A stretch of 37,104 nt of DNA from an uncultured Rubritalea sp. (GTDB lineage Bacteria > Verrucomicrobiota > Verrucomicrobiia > Verrucomicrobiales > Akkermansiaceae), in the NCBI GenBank assembly GCA_937981665.1, contig CALJOJ010000054.1:1-37104 (forward strand). The letters are read 5' to 3'. This document shows, piece after piece, positions 1,565-37,104 of the stretch. A program made the translations under genes and the position numbers. The stretch's first letter is position 1; each line of letters begins with the position of its first letter. The notes beneath the pieces are model-generated. The model worked only from the letters and a program-made list of their open reading frames with translations, was not told where the DNA came from and made no database searches.

Positions 1565-3064
1565 TTACTTTCCGCTTTTCCACAGTTCAATTTGATTAAT
1601 ATCGTTCTTTGATGTCGCACCATCTGTGCTTCGTCCCCGTTCCACATCCGCTTCAAGCTGTTGGAGTAATTTCTTGGCAATTTCAGGATGTGACATGTAA
1701 AGATTCTTAGTTTCTCCTGGATCGGCTTCCATGTCATAGAGCTGGGCTACGGGGGCATCTGCAGGAGCTTTTTTTTCTACGGGAGCACTCCAGCCTCCGG
1801 ACGCCTTGGCGAGCAGCAGTTTCCATTTACCTTGGCGATAAGCGAAGTGTCCGCTGATCGAGTGATGAACCACACCGGAACGAGTGGAGATAATCGGCTT
1901 GCCGGACAGCGCGGGCAGGAAGCTCACGCTGTCTTCCGCACTACCAGCGGGTAGCGCCTGGTCGGTCAGATCGGATAGCGTGGCGAACAGGTCGGTCAGG
2001 CATATCAACTGATCACTTTTCGAGCCGGCCTTCACCTGACCCGGCCAACGGACAACAAAAGGCACACGATGCCCCCCATCCCAGAGGTCGGCTTTCGAGC
2101 CGCGGAATCCTGCGCTAACCTTATGCCCTTTTTTTGCCAGTTCATCAATGTTCGCCGATTTGGAGGTTCCATTATCCGCACTAAAGATAATCAGGGTGTT
2201 TTCTGTAAGACCATGCTTCTCAAGTGCTGCCATAATCTGCCCTACTCCGTCGTCCGTCTCCATGACAAAATCCGCATGCTTGTTGAGCCCACTTTTTCCC
2301 TGCCATTCCTTAGTGGGGACAACCGGCGAGTGCGGCGATCCGTAAGGCACATAGAGAAAAAACGGGATCTCCTTTTCAGCGGCGCGAGCGTCGATGTACT
2401 CCACCGCTTTGCGAGTCAGACGGGGGAGCATATGAATTTCTTTTTCGTGTTTAATCACTGTGTCATTCTCGATTACGGCCTTCATAGCGCCCGCATGGTG
2501 GAAACCATGGTAATAATCGAACCCTCGACGAATCGGCCCGTCAGGAATCGTACTGCCAACGGGCGGGAGCGTCTTCCTTCCATTCTTCTTCATCAGAATA
2601 CCCGAAACCGGGTCTTGATATTGAAAATTGAGATGCCACTTGCCAACGATTCCCGTGTGATAGCCCTGCGATTTCAGAAAACTCGACACGGTCGGGCGAT
2701 CTTCCGCGATCAGATTGGGAGCAAACCCTTGAACCACGTGTGACTGCAACTTCGTGCGCCAGCTATAGCGCCCAGTCATCAGGCCATAGCGAGTAGGCGT
2801 GCAAACGGAAGAGCCAGAGTGCGCGTCAGTAAAGATCATGCCTTCTGTAGCAAGTTGGTCGACCGACGGTGTTTTGATTTTACCGTTCTCGGGATTCAAG
2901 CTCTGGATGTCACCATAACCGAGGTCATCGCAGAGGATGAAAACGATATTGGGCCTATCCTGAGCGATTTGTACGGGCTTCGATGCACCGCAAAGCGCAG
3001 TGACTGAAACAAATGATGCCAACAACCAAGCGGAGTAGGCTTTATGTCTATTTTTCATCGTCAT
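1565..3064 (-). CDS. Secreted sulfatase, formylglycine (Cys) type
   Basis: This 499-residue protein is a type I sulfatase of the alkaline phosphatase superfamily, which hydrolyses sulfate esters. A signal peptide covers about residues 1-27. The sulfatase signature SVCTPTRYGLMTGRY gives the C-x-P-x-R motif at 88-92, so Cys88 is the residue that maturation converts to formylglycine. Metal and active-site residues are visible: Asp46-Asp47 (CDDLGYGD), GKWH at 141-144, His245 (GSPHSP) and Asp297-Asn298 (ADNG). Length is normal for the family. The start could be Met1 or Met3; neither has a Shine-Dalgarno sequence. The exact substrate cannot be read from sequence; sulfated algal polysaccharides are a reasonable guess for a marine Verrucomicrobium. 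No sulfatase-maturing enzyme lies in the window. Confidence 0.93.
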   Translation of the reverse strand: MTMKNRHKAYSAWLLASFVSVTALCGASKPVQIAQDRPNIVFILCDDLGYGDIQSLNPENGKIKTPSVDQLATEGMIFTDAHSGSSVCTPTRYGLMTGRYSWRTKLQSHVVQGFAPNLIAEDRPTVSSFLKSQGYHTGIVGKWHLNFQYQDPVSGILMKKNGRKTLPPVGSTIPDGPIRRGFDYYHGFHHAGAMKAVIENDTVIKHEKEIHMLPRLTRKAVEYIDARAAEKEIPFFLYVPYGSPHSPVVPTKEWQGKSGLNKHADFVMETDDGVGQIMAALEKHGLTENTLIIFSADNGTSKSANIDELAKKGHKVSAGFRGSKADLWDGGHRVPFVVRWPGQVKAGSKSDQLICLTDLFATLSDLTDQALPAGSAEDSVSFLPALSGKPIISTRSGVVHHSISGHFAYRQGKWKLLLAKASGGWSAPVEKKAPADAPVAQLYDMEADPGETKNLYMSHPEIAKKLLQQLEADVERGRSTDGATSKNDINQIELWKSGK

Positions 3065-10469: not shown

Positions 10470-11354
10470 ATGTCAGAGGACAGCAATACAGCAGAGCTAA
10501 TGGAGAAGGTGCGTCGCATCGAGATCCGTACCCGTAAGATTGTAGAAAATCGGACGGGTGGAGCTTATCATTCTACCTTTAAGGGGCAAGGTATTGAGTT
10601 TAGTGAAGTAAGAGAATACTTAGAAGGTGACGATATCCGCGCTATTGATTGGAATGTCTCTGCTCGCATGGGGTCACCTTATATTAAGCTTTTTACTGAG
10701 GAACGTGAGCAGAATGTTTTTCTGCTCGTTGACCGCTCGGCTTCCAATGACTTTGGTAGTGGTGAGCAGACTAAAACTGAGTTACTCGCTGAGATAGCCG
10801 CTGTTCTTGCCTTTAGCGCTACTCATAATAAAGATAGAGTAGGGCTAATGCTCTATACTGACAAAGAAGAGCTACATCTTAAGCCAGGCAGGGGACATCA
10901 ACATGTTTTACGCATTGTCCGTGAGCTACTCGCTTTTAAAACAGAGTCTCCGAAAACCGACTTGAAACTAGGTCTAGAGCAGCTCCTCGCTAATAACTGC
11001 CGTAAAAGCGTCGTCTTCATATTGAGTGACCTCATCACAGAGAGCGAGTATGAGCAGCAACTTCGTGCTCTCAATATCCTACATGATGTGATCGTTATTC
11101 ATATTACCGACCCCCTTGAAGAGAGCCTTCCCAAGATACCAGGCATAAACATCGAAGATAAAGAAACAGGTGTGGTTACTAGACTATCACGCAGGCATGC
11201 TAAGAGTTTAGCAGAGCGAGCGAAAAAGTCTCGTAAGGAAGCGACTGCTATTTGTCAGCGTTCTGGAGCTGACATTGTCCACCTTTCAGCCTCAGAAGAT
11301 TACCTTCCAGAAATGATCGCCCTTTTTGAACGCCGCTCTAACAGACGCAGATGA
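10470..11354 (+). CDS. DUF58 protein with VWA-like domain
   Basis: This 294-residue cytoplasmic protein has the DUF58 signature from about 41 to 80: EFSEVREYLEGDDIRAIDW, then NVSAR and IKLFTEERE. A VWA-like fold follows, with the metal motif DRSAS at 88-92. DUF58 proteins are standard partners of MoxR ATPases and usually sit directly next to them, as here. The stop overlaps the next start (ATGA at 11351-11354), so the two are translationally coupled. Confidence 0.93.
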   Translation: MSEDSNTAELMEKVRRIEIRTRKIVENRTGGAYHSTFKGQGIEFSEVREYLEGDDIRAIDWNVSARMGSPYIKLFTEEREQNVFLLVDRSASNDFGSGEQTKTELLAEIAAVLAFSATHNKDRVGLMLYTDKEELHLKPGRGHQHVLRIVRELLAFKTESPKTDLKLGLEQLLANNCRKSVVFILSDLITESEYEQQLRALNILHDVIVIHITDPLEESLPKIPGINIEDKETGVVTRLSRRHAKSLAERAKKSRKEATAICQRSGADIVHLSASEDYLPEMIALFERRSNRRR

Positions 11355-24854: not shown

Positions 24855-27449
24855 TTACTCAACGTAGCTTGTGAAATCAGCATCATTACTGACCTTACCA
24901 ATCTCAGCCTCGAGGAAAGCCTGCATGCTTACTTGACCGGATTCTTCCATTTGCTTATGTGCAATCTTAAGCTGCCTTACAAATGCCTCTCTAATCTTGG
25001 TCACCCCAGGAAAATCCTCACTATCCAGACGTTTTTGAGCTTTCTTAGCATAAGCTATACAATCATTGGCTTTTGCTGAAGCCATATTCTCGGGAAGATC
25101 ACTTGGAACTCGCTTTTCACCATCCACCTGAGTGAGAACCTCGTCAATCCCCTCAGTCTCAGGCTGCGTTTTTGAGTTGACTTCAAGACGACGCTTAAGA
25201 GAGCGGAGATCCGCCGCTAGGTTACGCACAATAGATGCGTAGCTATCCTCCCTGGCCTTCTTATCTCTTTCTATAACCTCCCTCGCTTTAACCTTAAGTT
25301 TATCAAGGTCACTTAACTTAAAAGTATTTGCTGCCTCCACAGCCCCATCAGCATCTTTACCCCATTCGATGATGAAACCATACTTCTCCTCACCAGCAGA
25401 AACGGGTTCAAGCACAAGCTTTCTAACAGATCCAATCACTGCAAAATCTCCTTCTCCCTTACCGGAATCAAGCCATTCTAATTTGCCCCATGGTTCCCCT
25501 GTTTCCCAACTCCATAATTGATCTACCTTAGTAGCTGCCGTCCAGTACTTCTCACCTGATTTTGCATTGTTCTTAAGATAAGCAATAAGCGCTTTGCTTT
25601 CCGTATCTCCTGCAATAGCGACTAGGCGTCCACCAGCAGAAGCAGCCATCTTCACAGCCTTCTGACGAGACACAAGACTCTTCACCACGTAGTACTGAGC
25701 ATCATCACTCTTCGCCCCTAAGACTTCACCTGTTCTAGTGAGACGAGATTGCAGGTCAGCTGGATTACTTCCGTCAACACGCCACTCGATGAAGAATGGA
25801 TACTTCTCACTGGAAAGACTGGCTTTTATTTTTCCATACTCAGATAGAACAGCATATTCAGGCTGGTCTGATGAACTTAGGGTTATAGAATCCGCCCATG
25901 GTGAGCCGTCTAACCATGTCCAGTCACCTATCGTATTATCTCCTCCTAGCCATGCTGAATTCACACCTGTGGGTAACTTCTCAGCTAATGCAGGCATATC
26001 TGTCTCGGAAGACGTCACAGCGATATAGCCACCGTACTCCTGGGTCCATGCATCTGCCTCATGCCACGTCATCGGTGTCTCGATGTACATAAGAATGCGT
26101 GCACCCTCACTTAACTTAAACATTGATTCAGGCATCTCAGCTATTGGTCGATGGCCGCCTACAAGCCGCTCTTTGAGCCCTTCTAGCTTCTGCAGCGGAG
26201 TGAGAACCACTACTTTTTCGGCAGCCTCAGCTTCAGCAGCTAACTTTGCAGCTTCTGCTTCCTCTTTAGATTTCTTCATCGCTAATCTAGCCTTTCTCTC
26301 CTTCTTGGCTTTCTCCTTTATCAGCGCTGCTTTTTTAGCCTCCTTTATCCTAAGCTGTTCAGCCTGCTGTTCAGCAATGATCGCATCCTCTGCCGACTGC
26401 TTCTTGTAAAAGAAAAATGCGGCAACACCCAAAACCGCAACTGCTGTTAAACTCGCTAAAAAATTCGCACTAGCATTAGACGCATTTTTTACTGGGTCCG
26501 CTGCCTGCCTCCTCGCAATCAAGGCGCTCTCCGGTGACACGGAACTTGGCCCGTTATAAAGTGATGATCCGCCTACTTTACTTGATGATGGAGCTACTGA
26601 CATAGCCGAACTAGCTCCTACTAATAATTTACGCTGCGACTTTGGGTTAGCAATCACATCCTTGAGAGCTTGCGCTAACTCGCTCGCTGACTCATGCCTC
26701 ATATCGATATTCTCATTGATTGCCCGCTTGATTATAAAATCAAACCTCTTATCACTATTAGCAAACTCAGTAACAGATACATAAGGATCACTCGGTAACT
26801 TACCGGTAAGTAACTCGTAAAGCATAACGCCCACTGCGAAAATATCCGTGCGGTGATCCACTTTATCTGGTGCTTCTAACACCTCAGGTGCTGCGTAATG
26901 AGGAGTCCCAAAAATAACTCCTGTCTCCGTCATCTCACTCGGTCTCGCTAATCCGAAATCTCCAATTTTAGGAACAAATCTTTTATTAAGTATGATGTTG
27001 GCTGGCTTCACATCACGGTGCAACATTCCCGCATCATGCGCGTGCTGTAAGCCCTCACAAATACCAACAGTGATATTCACTGCAGTCTCCTGCTCAATCA
27101 TATTTCCACCAGCAGCAGCAAATAATGACTCTCCTTTCACATGCTCCATCACAATGTAGAGCATCCCATTAATCTCGCCAAAATCATAAATGCCTATCAT
27201 GTTGGCATGATTCAATTTTGCCATCAACTTAGCTTCAGTCTCGAATGAGTCTTTGAAATCTGCATCTTCACAAAGCACCGGTGACAAAATCTTAATCGCC
27301 ACTAAACGATCCAAAGACGTCTGCCTAGCAAGATAGACAGCCCCCATGCCGCCTTTAGCAATGAAGTCTACAAATTCATAGTTAGGTATTAGCTCATTTA
27401 GCTCCTCTACTGACGGAGCTACAAATTCTATCTGGTTATTATTCGACAT
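24855..27449 (-). CDS. Transmembrane Ser/Thr kinase with two CTL-like domains
   Basis: This 864-residue protein starts with a Hanks-type kinase domain (about 25-270): GGMGAVYL loop at 33-40, Lys53 in VAIKIL, HRDVKPAN with Asp146, DFG at 164-166 and GTPHYAAPE. One transmembrane helix follows at about 332-352, then a long Ala/Glu/Lys coiled coil (about 358-412). Outside are two C-type-lectin-like domains, about 440-555 (WLGG and WTWLDGSPW) and 575-690, both without cysteines. The C-terminal part is helical. The layout fits a receptor kinase that senses an extracellular ligand. Neighbours: convergent with lpxK (43 bp gap) and divergent from the S10 operon. Confidence 0.9.
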   Translation of the reverse strand: MSNNNQIEFVAPSVEELNELIPNYEFVDFIAKGGMGAVYLARQTSLDRLVAIKILSPVLCEDADFKDSFETEAKLMAKLNHANMIGIYDFGEINGMLYIVMEHVKGESLFAAAGGNMIEQETAVNITVGICEGLQHAHDAGMLHRDVKPANIILNKRFVPKIGDFGLARPSEMTETGVIFGTPHYAAPEVLEAPDKVDHRTDIFAVGVMLYELLTGKLPSDPYVSVTEFANSDKRFDFIIKRAINENIDMRHESASELAQALKDVIANPKSQRKLLVGASSAMSVAPSSSKVGGSSLYNGPSSVSPESALIARRQAADPVKNASNASANFLASLTAVAVLGVAAFFFYKKQSAEDAIIAEQQAEQLRIKEAKKAALIKEKAKKERKARLAMKKSKEEAEAAKLAAEAEAAEKVVVLTPLQKLEGLKERLVGGHRPIAEMPESMFKLSEGARILMYIETPMTWHEADAWTQEYGGYIAVTSSETDMPALAEKLPTGVNSAWLGGDNTIGDWTWLDGSPWADSITLSSSDQPEYAVLSEYGKIKASLSSEKYPFFIEWRVDGSNPADLQSRLTRTGEVLGAKSDDAQYYVVKSLVSRQKAVKMAASAGGRLVAIAGDTESKALIAYLKNNAKSGEKYWTAATKVDQLWSWETGEPWGKLEWLDSGKGEGDFAVIGSVRKLVLEPVSAGEEKYGFIIEWGKDADGAVEAANTFKLSDLDKLKVKAREVIERDKKAREDSYASIVRNLAADLRSLKRRLEVNSKTQPETEGIDEVLTQVDGEKRVPSDLPENMASAKANDCIAYAKKAQKRLDSEDFPGVTKIREAFVRQLKIAHKQMEESGQVSMQAFLEAEIGKVSNDADFTSYVE

Positions 27450-34781: not shown

Positions 34782-35006
34782 ATGAAGAATACTCACGTTA
34801 AAAAAGGCGATAACGTCGTTGTGATCTCAGGTGGCCATAAAGGCAAGTCTGGTACTGTTCTCTCTGTAAACGCAGCGAAGCAGCAGGTCATCGTCGAAGG
34901 TGTCCGCAAGATCAAAAAGGCAGTTAAGCCAACACAAGAGAATCAAGAAGGTGGCATCCAAGAGCTGGATGGTCCTATCCATATCTCTAACGTAAAGAAG
35001 GCGTAG
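34782..35006 (+). CDS. rplX: Ribosomal protein L24
   Basis: This 74-residue protein is L24, an initiator of 50S assembly with a KOW motif ([18 protein letters not shown], then [16 protein letters not shown]). It is on the short side; many L24 proteins are 75-105 residues, and the end ISNVKKA is a plausible natural terminus. rplE should follow within tens of bases but is absent, because bacterial sequence stops soon after this gene. Confidence 0.95.
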
Positions 35007-35202
35007 TCTTCCTTACCACATCGTTCTAATAAAAGCGGTATCGTGTCTCACGGTTGGCTCCAACGTTGGCACAACTGCAGGAAATCAGGCGCGCAACGGA
35101 GGCGACGGATGACCGAGACAGGGAAAGAAACAACACAAACGCACACGCACACGCACACGAAGGACATGAGCACCGACGATTCGATGTCGCCATCACACTC
35201 AC

Positions 35203-36035
35203 GGGTATCGCTTCGTCGTGCATGTAGGCGAGGGCGGATGCCACACCAGCGGCTTGTCGGAGGGCTTCCTTCATCGGAAACCAAGACTTGACGCTGGTGC
35301 GCACCAACCAGGTGGACCTCTCCGGACCGTCCTTGGTCCCTATCGCCGTGGACAGCGTGCCTCCTGAGAGCAGCTCCGAGGCCACGAACAACCCCCCCTG
35401 CGGGTGCGTACAGCACCCGTCCGCCAGCGTTAAGACATTCGACAGAGGTAGGACGTTGCAGGAGAGGCATTGAGTGAGCCACCACTAGAATGCTATAATC
35501 GGGAAGCTGGGACAGGGTTGGGGTGAAATGATTCATCTCTAGGCGAAGATATTGAAACCAGAAACAAGGATTTCGGGCAGGCCTACACCGGCAGAAGGGC
35601 GAAACAGGTACAGCTAGCATAAGACAACCATGCGCATGTGTTTCAAAAAGAAATGTTGAACAGTGAAGATATCCCCACTGTTGGTGGTTCGTCTGTCAGG
35701 AGCAAACAGTACCGGTTTTTCTCTCGGGAGGGATGTCTGATCAACGGTTTCACGGCTGTATCGCAGTACAGCCGTGAGGCGCAGCGCGGATTTTCTTCAC
35801 AATCAACGCAGAAAAAAATTAAGCTCTTCGCGGCAGTTTCGCGTGTGTCACCTCTGGCATCTGGCCAGCCCCCGCTAGCCTGGCGATGTGTGGGTGGTGC
35901 AGGAGCTTCATGAGTTGCAGCTCTCTTTCCAGGTCCTCTGCATCGGCTTCAGAATCGTTGCCGGCCTTAAGAGCCTTGATTGCGACGTTCCGGCCGCCGC
36001 CGCCCCCGCCTCCACCCAGTGTGCCACGGAAGCAG
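35203..36035 (-). CDS. Eukaryotic protein kinase, two exons (partial)
   Basis: Exon 36035-35852 encodes a kinase N-lobe: CFRGTL, a Gly run, RNVAIKALKAG with the ATP-binding Lys, an alpha-C segment LERELQLM, and LLHHPHIARLAGAGQMPE. It ends at a GT donor (35851-35850). After a 454-bp intron closing with CAG, exon 35397-35203 continues in phase 0: GGLFVASELLSGGTL (hinge), then ALRQAAGVASALAYMHDEAIP (alpha-E), ending at a perfect GTGAGT donor (35202-35197). The next exon, which should carry HRD and DFG, is not found before the bacterial junction. The upstream exon with the start of the Gly loop is also missing or unrecognised. Family resembles tyrosine-kinase-like kinases; the call is firm, the species is not. 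Confidence 0.82.
35398..35851 (-). other. Spliceosomal intron in the kinase gene
   Basis: The intron begins GTGACA at 35851 and ends CAG at 35400-35398 on the minus strand. Joining its flanks gives an unbroken kinase reading frame (MPE joined to GGLFVASE). It contains a perfect inverted repeat, CACGGCTGTA (35751-35760) and TACAGCCGTG (35767-35776), with a 6-nt centre. Confidence 0.75.
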
Positions 36036-36156
36036 CTGTACGTTTCAGTCAGGTATCGCAGACACAGCCATGGCTTGGGTGGTCAAGAGCAGAAAAATCC
36101 GAAGAAAAACCTGTGGCACTCGTTTGCAAATAGATGCTGTAGCGTGCGTGTTCCAA

Positions 36157-36235
36157 TACAGTCGAACCTCGGCTAAGACGCGTATGGTTCTTCGTTTTCA
36201 GAGCATCTTCAACCGAGGGAATCGTCTTCATAAAT
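36157..36235 (-). mobile_element. Possible end of a pogo/Tigger-like DNA transposon
   Basis: A TA dinucleotide (36157-36158) is followed by CAGTCGAACCTCGGC, which resembles the terminal inverted repeats of pogo/Tigger-type elements as I remember them. A related subterminal motif in the same vicinity (AACCGAGG near 36210-36217) adds weak support. The other end is not seen, so the element would extend toward or past the right edge. No transposase domain is readable. Confidence 0.35.
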
Positions 36236-37104
36236 CGACATCCCCGCGGTCAACGGAGACGTACCATAGACTATATCAAAAGATGCGCCTTTGTAGCAGG
36301 AAAGGTCCAACGATACTCGAACACCAAAAATGCGACGGTCACACCGTGGCAGGTCGTTGAAAGCCTCACGCACCCCGTGTCGGAAGTTGTTCGTTGGTTT
36401 CGCTGCACCTGCTCCCCGAAAACTATTGCGAAAGTTGTACCGGGTAGGTGGTAGTGCATGCACATGACAGCAGTGTACTTGCACTGCTGCTGTTGTTGTG
36501 CTATCTTTGTAGCGTGTAGTGTTGGTTCCTCGCGTTGAACGTGTCGCGGGCACGTCGTCAGCATCTCAAATGTACTCTTGTGGTTTCTACGCACCAAGGA
36601 GGAACCAAACAACCGTCGACGCCCGAAATACACATATTTAGATCCCCAAAATCAGTAAGGAAAAAACAAAAACGTAGGTAGTGAAAAGGTTCTACGTTGC
36701 GGGCGTCGGTTCTCTTCTCTTGGATGTTTGGTGCGGAGTCCGCACCGGGTGCTCTCGCCACGGGTCGAGAGAGACGGGCCGCAAGAGCTTTGTGGGTCGA
36801 GAGAGCTGGTCTCCGGATAGAGCGGGTATACGTGCATTTGCACGCGCAGGGATAATCCGGGTTCCTCCGAGGAAAGCGCTTGACTGACGTCGAGGAACAC
36901 CAGCTCGTTCCCATCTGTAAAGCGCAAAACACCTTAATTGCGGCTGTACTGGCACCTCCCCTGAAAACTACTGAAAACAGTATTCTCAATAATAATCCCT
37001 TCACCTCCACGCCATCTTACGCTTGGACGTTTTTGGAAAGCTTGCCTCTAAATACAATGTCAATTTTCTCATCTCAGGACACCTTCGAGGCAGGCGAGAG
37101 TCGG
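36236..37104. other. Eukaryotic DNA without a recognisable gene
   Basis: Several minus-strand frames cross this region (for example 36558-37010), but they have low-complexity, Arg/Ser/Cys-rich composition and no domain I know. Visible small-scale structure: a direct repeat GGGTCGAGAGAG at 36762-36773 and 36794-36805, and a palindrome GTGCGGA/TCCGCAC at 36731-36745. These fit repeat-rich intergenic or transposon-derived DNA. Confidence 0.45.

Follow-up and report, generated by a model that had tools for sequence, protein, structure and literature searches.

The contig C54 of the Rubritalea assembly G000 carries bacterial genes up to rplX and DNA of eukaryotic appearance behind it, which raises the question of whether the two parts belong to one chromosome. 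The window analysed here is this entire contig, 37,104 bp in length. The assembly comprises 2.71 Mb in 107 contigs and is rated 92.9% complete with 0.04% contamination. The bacterial side of the contig is a 35-kb gene-dense stretch with a GC content of 43.8%, in which ORFs of at least 200 residues cover 78% of the sequence. A sulfatase reported in the preliminary description is present at positions 1565-3064 on the minus strand (PF00884, E 2.1e-52). The minus-strand ORF at 24855-27449 encodes a bacterial protein kinase that combines matches to PF00069 (6.3e-47) and to the C-type lectin family PF00059 (9.5e-10) in one protein. Searches of the whole window for tRNAs and Rfam families gave no match.

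The rplX gene (uL24; 34782-35006, plus strand) is intact down to its own TAG stop codon and encodes a 74-residue protein with matches to KOW (E 1.9e-9) and ribosomal_L24 (E 1.1e-8). It is followed on the same strand by the remnant of a transcription terminator at 35031-35052, composed of the left arm of a hairpin, AAAAGCGGTATCGTG (35031-35045), the loop TCT (35046-35048), and CACG (35049-35052), with which the right arm begins. Behind CACG the sequence departs from the hairpin, leaving the right arm unfinished and the T run absent. A comparison of folds placed a complete hairpin with a T run behind rplX in all eight relatives tested from the genus, and none of this form on C54; the count omits two matching relatives, L004, whose contig ends there, and L013, in which rplX was not picked up. 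The junction between bacterial and eukaryote-like DNA is therefore positioned at 35052/35053, give or take about 2 bases, as 35052 is the last base that fits the hairpin. The trinucleotide composition model alone sets the boundary at about 35036. The change in composition, coding density, and gene style that had been noted behind rplX thus stands, and its site moves from 35007 into the terminator hairpin. The switch is abrupt and lacks a repeat or a mobile-element boundary. A transposon at the junction was considered and rejected, as neither a transposase match nor repeat borders were found. The expected right arm of the terminator occurs nowhere else in G000 at up to one mismatch, its sole match being the left arm read on the opposite strand. 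Neither the true bacterial continuation behind the half hairpin nor, with it, the correct join could be located in the assembly.

The ribosomal operon was earlier described as cut after rplX. It is not cut, because rplX has its stop codon and the transcription unit normally ends there with a terminator in the genus. The single Ribosomal_L5 match of the assembly, rplE, lies in a separate operon on contig C46 (10538-11104, minus strand), where a 188-residue ORF starts at 11104 and has a 1007-residue ORF, not rplX, as its upstream neighbour. Interruption of the operon was rejected on this location of rplE and on the split being usual in the genus. Matches to both rplN and rplE are present in 75 of 79 genomes of the family, and the four genomes with neither were left out of the adjacency count. 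The two genes are apart in eight of nine genomes of the same genus (seven on different contigs, one at 286 kb; the ninth genome has them at 1.1 kb) and in all eight genomes of a second genus of the family, g2 (four on different contigs, four at 218-882 kb), where location on a different contig is weak evidence of separation for fragmented assemblies. In the remaining genera of the family, rplN and rplE are adjacent in 56 of 58 genomes. The ribosomal protein cluster is thus split between rplX and rplE in these two genera and not in the others.

The tail of the contig spans 35053-37104 and runs off the contig end. This 2.05-kb stretch has a GC content of 53.8%, compared to 43.8% on the bacterial side, and none of it is covered by ORFs of at least 200 residues. 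Its dinucleotide distance from the bacterial mean is 0.153, whereas 66 overlapping bacterial windows of equal length do not exceed 0.137. The microsatellite mentioned in the preliminary description exists as (ACGCAC)x3.5 at 35139-35159 on the plus strand; however, it is only 21 bp long, and its score of 42 lies under the default tandem-repeat score, so that it appears at a lowered threshold only. The transposon-like repeats claimed for the tail were not recovered, the only repeats being direct matches of 12-20 nt that occur twice each, along with two inverted pairs of 12 nt. A stretch near 36160 that might resemble the inverted ends of pogo/Tigger transposons has no supporting inverted repeat. 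The tail has no second copy in G000, and a comparison with 386 further genomes of the phylum gave only matches of 26-53 bp, in five genomes, which we take as chance.

The tail contains a piece of a spliced kinase gene on the minus strand, in agreement with the initial reading of the sequence. Exon a (35852-36035; CFRGTL ... VAIKALK ... LERELQLMKLLHHPHIARLAGAG) has an AG acceptor immediately upstream, at 36036-36037, and on its own matches PF07714 with E 1.7e-6. It is separated by a 454-bp GT-AG intron of phase 0 (35398-35851) from exon b (35203-35397; GGLFVASELLSGGTL ... ALRQAAGVASALAYMHDEAIP). A GTGAGT donor follows exon b and opens a further intron that extends into the junction. Exon b is unmatched on its own, and splicing it to exon a lifts the PF07714 score from 28.0 to 45.5 bits, above the curated cut-off of 23.1 bits. 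The spliced product of 131 residues matches PF07714 with E 7.7e-12 and PF00069 with E 8.8e-9, in a query that included five residues upstream of the acceptor as later placed. The PF07714 match covers profile positions 17-121 of 258 and shares with the kinase domain, in the same order, the regions that we take to be the VAIK lysine, the helix-C glutamate, the hinge, and helix E. Unlike a full PF07714/PF00069 domain, the fragment stops at position 121; the catalytic HRD and DFG motifs are not in it, and the catalytic and activation loops would lie beyond the junction. The piece consists of two internal exons bounded by introns on both sides. The gene is incomplete towards the junction as well as towards the contig end, and its remaining exons would sit past these two points. 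Relatives of solved structure include ZAP-70 and MLK4 among the matches listed. No relative was found in genome_contigs, and viral_contigs gave one 21-residue match, which we attribute to the general similarity among kinases. The kinase is an ordinary fragment of a eukaryotic gene.

The ends of the other contigs were surveyed with a trinucleotide log-odds model that contrasts the C54 tail with 267 kb of contig interiors and is run inward from each end. The survey covered 212 of 214 ends, every one except the distal ends of C27 and C55. The 673 interior control positions reached a maximum of 26.2; contig C104, seen beforehand to carry a deviant region, was excluded from these interiors, and its inclusion could raise that maximum. 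Eukaryote-like tails of 1.5-2.7 kb occur at six of the 212 ends, all above the control maximum. These are the starts of C22 (L176; log-odds 171.5, 2680 bp), C60 (L212; 111.0, 2587 bp), C31 (L185; 88.6, 1619 bp), and C70 (L137; 82.0, 1484 bp), and the ends of C87 (L154; 52.6, 1522 bp) and of C54 itself (149.7, 2069 bp). Since the C54 tail served as the training set, the independent finds are five of the other 211 ends. The next-ranked end, that of C93, scores 20.5, inside the control range. The dinucleotide measure, applied to 527 kb from 40 other contigs, scored 955 windows and skipped six for N or length; it ranks the C87 end, parts of C104, and the C70 end highest. The high-scoring parts of C104 carry intact long ORFs of bacterial type, including one of 989 residues, and no eukaryote-like stretch was seen inside contigs within the sampled 527 kb. 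The region of deviant composition on C104 (L131, 8005-16144) resembles a mobile element; its translations suggest two integrase-like ORFs and a primase-like character for the 989-residue ORF.

The bacterial contexts of the joins differ between the contigs, so that the same kind of join recurs at several unrelated places. One dispersed repeat is present in both the C22 and the C60 tail, where the two copies match at 72% over 217 bp (E 4e-25). The C22 tail additionally contains several simple tandem repeats, and the C70 tail has a 91-bp tandem array. On C87, the switch to eukaryote-like DNA falls within a bacterial ORF; a comparison of this ORF across the genus showed a C-terminal half too variable among relatives for the lost part to be traced. 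None of seven sequences taken from the five other tails, either ORFs or stretches resembling exons, had a Pfam match, and Rfam searches of six other contigs returned two tRNAs and a piece of a group II intron, all of which lie outside the C70 and C87 tails. The five tails are called eukaryote-like only because of their composition, their repeats, and the absence of long ORFs.

A genuine horizontal transfer would have inserted eukaryotic DNA into the Rubritalea chromosome behind rplX. The abrupt join directly behind an operon, a place of low cost, would suit such an event, as would a bacterium that may live near eukaryotes. However, only one of the two junctions of an insert exists, as the contig stops at 37104 while still in the tail and has bacterial DNA on one side only. 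The gene fragment is a middle piece with introns on both sides and not a complete gene, no mobile vehicle was found with it, similar tails sit at five other contig ends and at no place inside the sampled contigs, and one join, that on C87, breaks a bacterial ORF. We consider the transfer highly improbable. Its extension to all of the tails, by which several kilobases of intron-bearing host DNA would have been taken up at several places of the Rubritalea chromosome with the assembly breaking inside each insert, is even less credible.

Two further explanations are extremely unlikely. Insertion of Rubritalea DNA into a eukaryotic nuclear genome, later binned with the bacterium, would account for eukaryotic DNA adjoining bacterial genes. 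However, the bacterial side is the long gene-dense stretch described above, from a nearly complete genome with very low estimated contamination, and six such ends would require many insertions; we rate its likelihood as close to nil. The tail could also be degenerate or mobile Rubritalea DNA with a kinase pseudogene, in line with 11 other kinase matches in G000 and with stretches of more than 1.2 kb elsewhere in the assembly that lack a long ORF. The 11 matches all lie in frames without stops. Against a bacterial tail stand its dinucleotide profile outside the bacterial range and the lack of a second copy in G000 and of homologous DNA in the phylum sample. The bacterial pseudogene was rejected because the clean GT-AG intron restores the kinase frame in phase 0, and this origin of the tail has a vanishingly small probability.

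The tail of C54 is almost certainly eukaryotic DNA that became attached artificially to a Rubritalea contig, with the join lying in the hairpin of the rplX terminator. The chimeric contig, already the main reading of the preliminary description, is well supported and has been much strengthened by the survey of contig ends (6/212). Because similar tails are present at several other ends, an artefact of the assembly or library is the most likely cause, not gene transfer. C54 is one of about six chimeric ends in G000, and the chimerism is systematic. The eukaryote presumably came from the same sample as the Rubritalea, and the join would have been made either by a chimeric library molecule or by a wrong join of the assembler. 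An algal host is a possible source of the tail; the sulfatase, though real, does not show it. The tail has no biological function in the bacterium.

G000, with its contamination rating of 0.04%, illustrates the fusion of eukaryotic DNA to the ends of contigs. Screens for gene transfer that read such contigs would give false transfers from eukaryotes to bacteria, and at least six ends of G000 should be trimmed. Chimeric contigs in metagenome-assembled genomes are discussed in the GUNC paper (PMC8201837). C54 shares with them the wrong assembly of fragments of different source within one contig. It differs from the chimeras discussed there in that its partner is eukaryotic and mostly non-coding, and in that the joins are located at contig ends.
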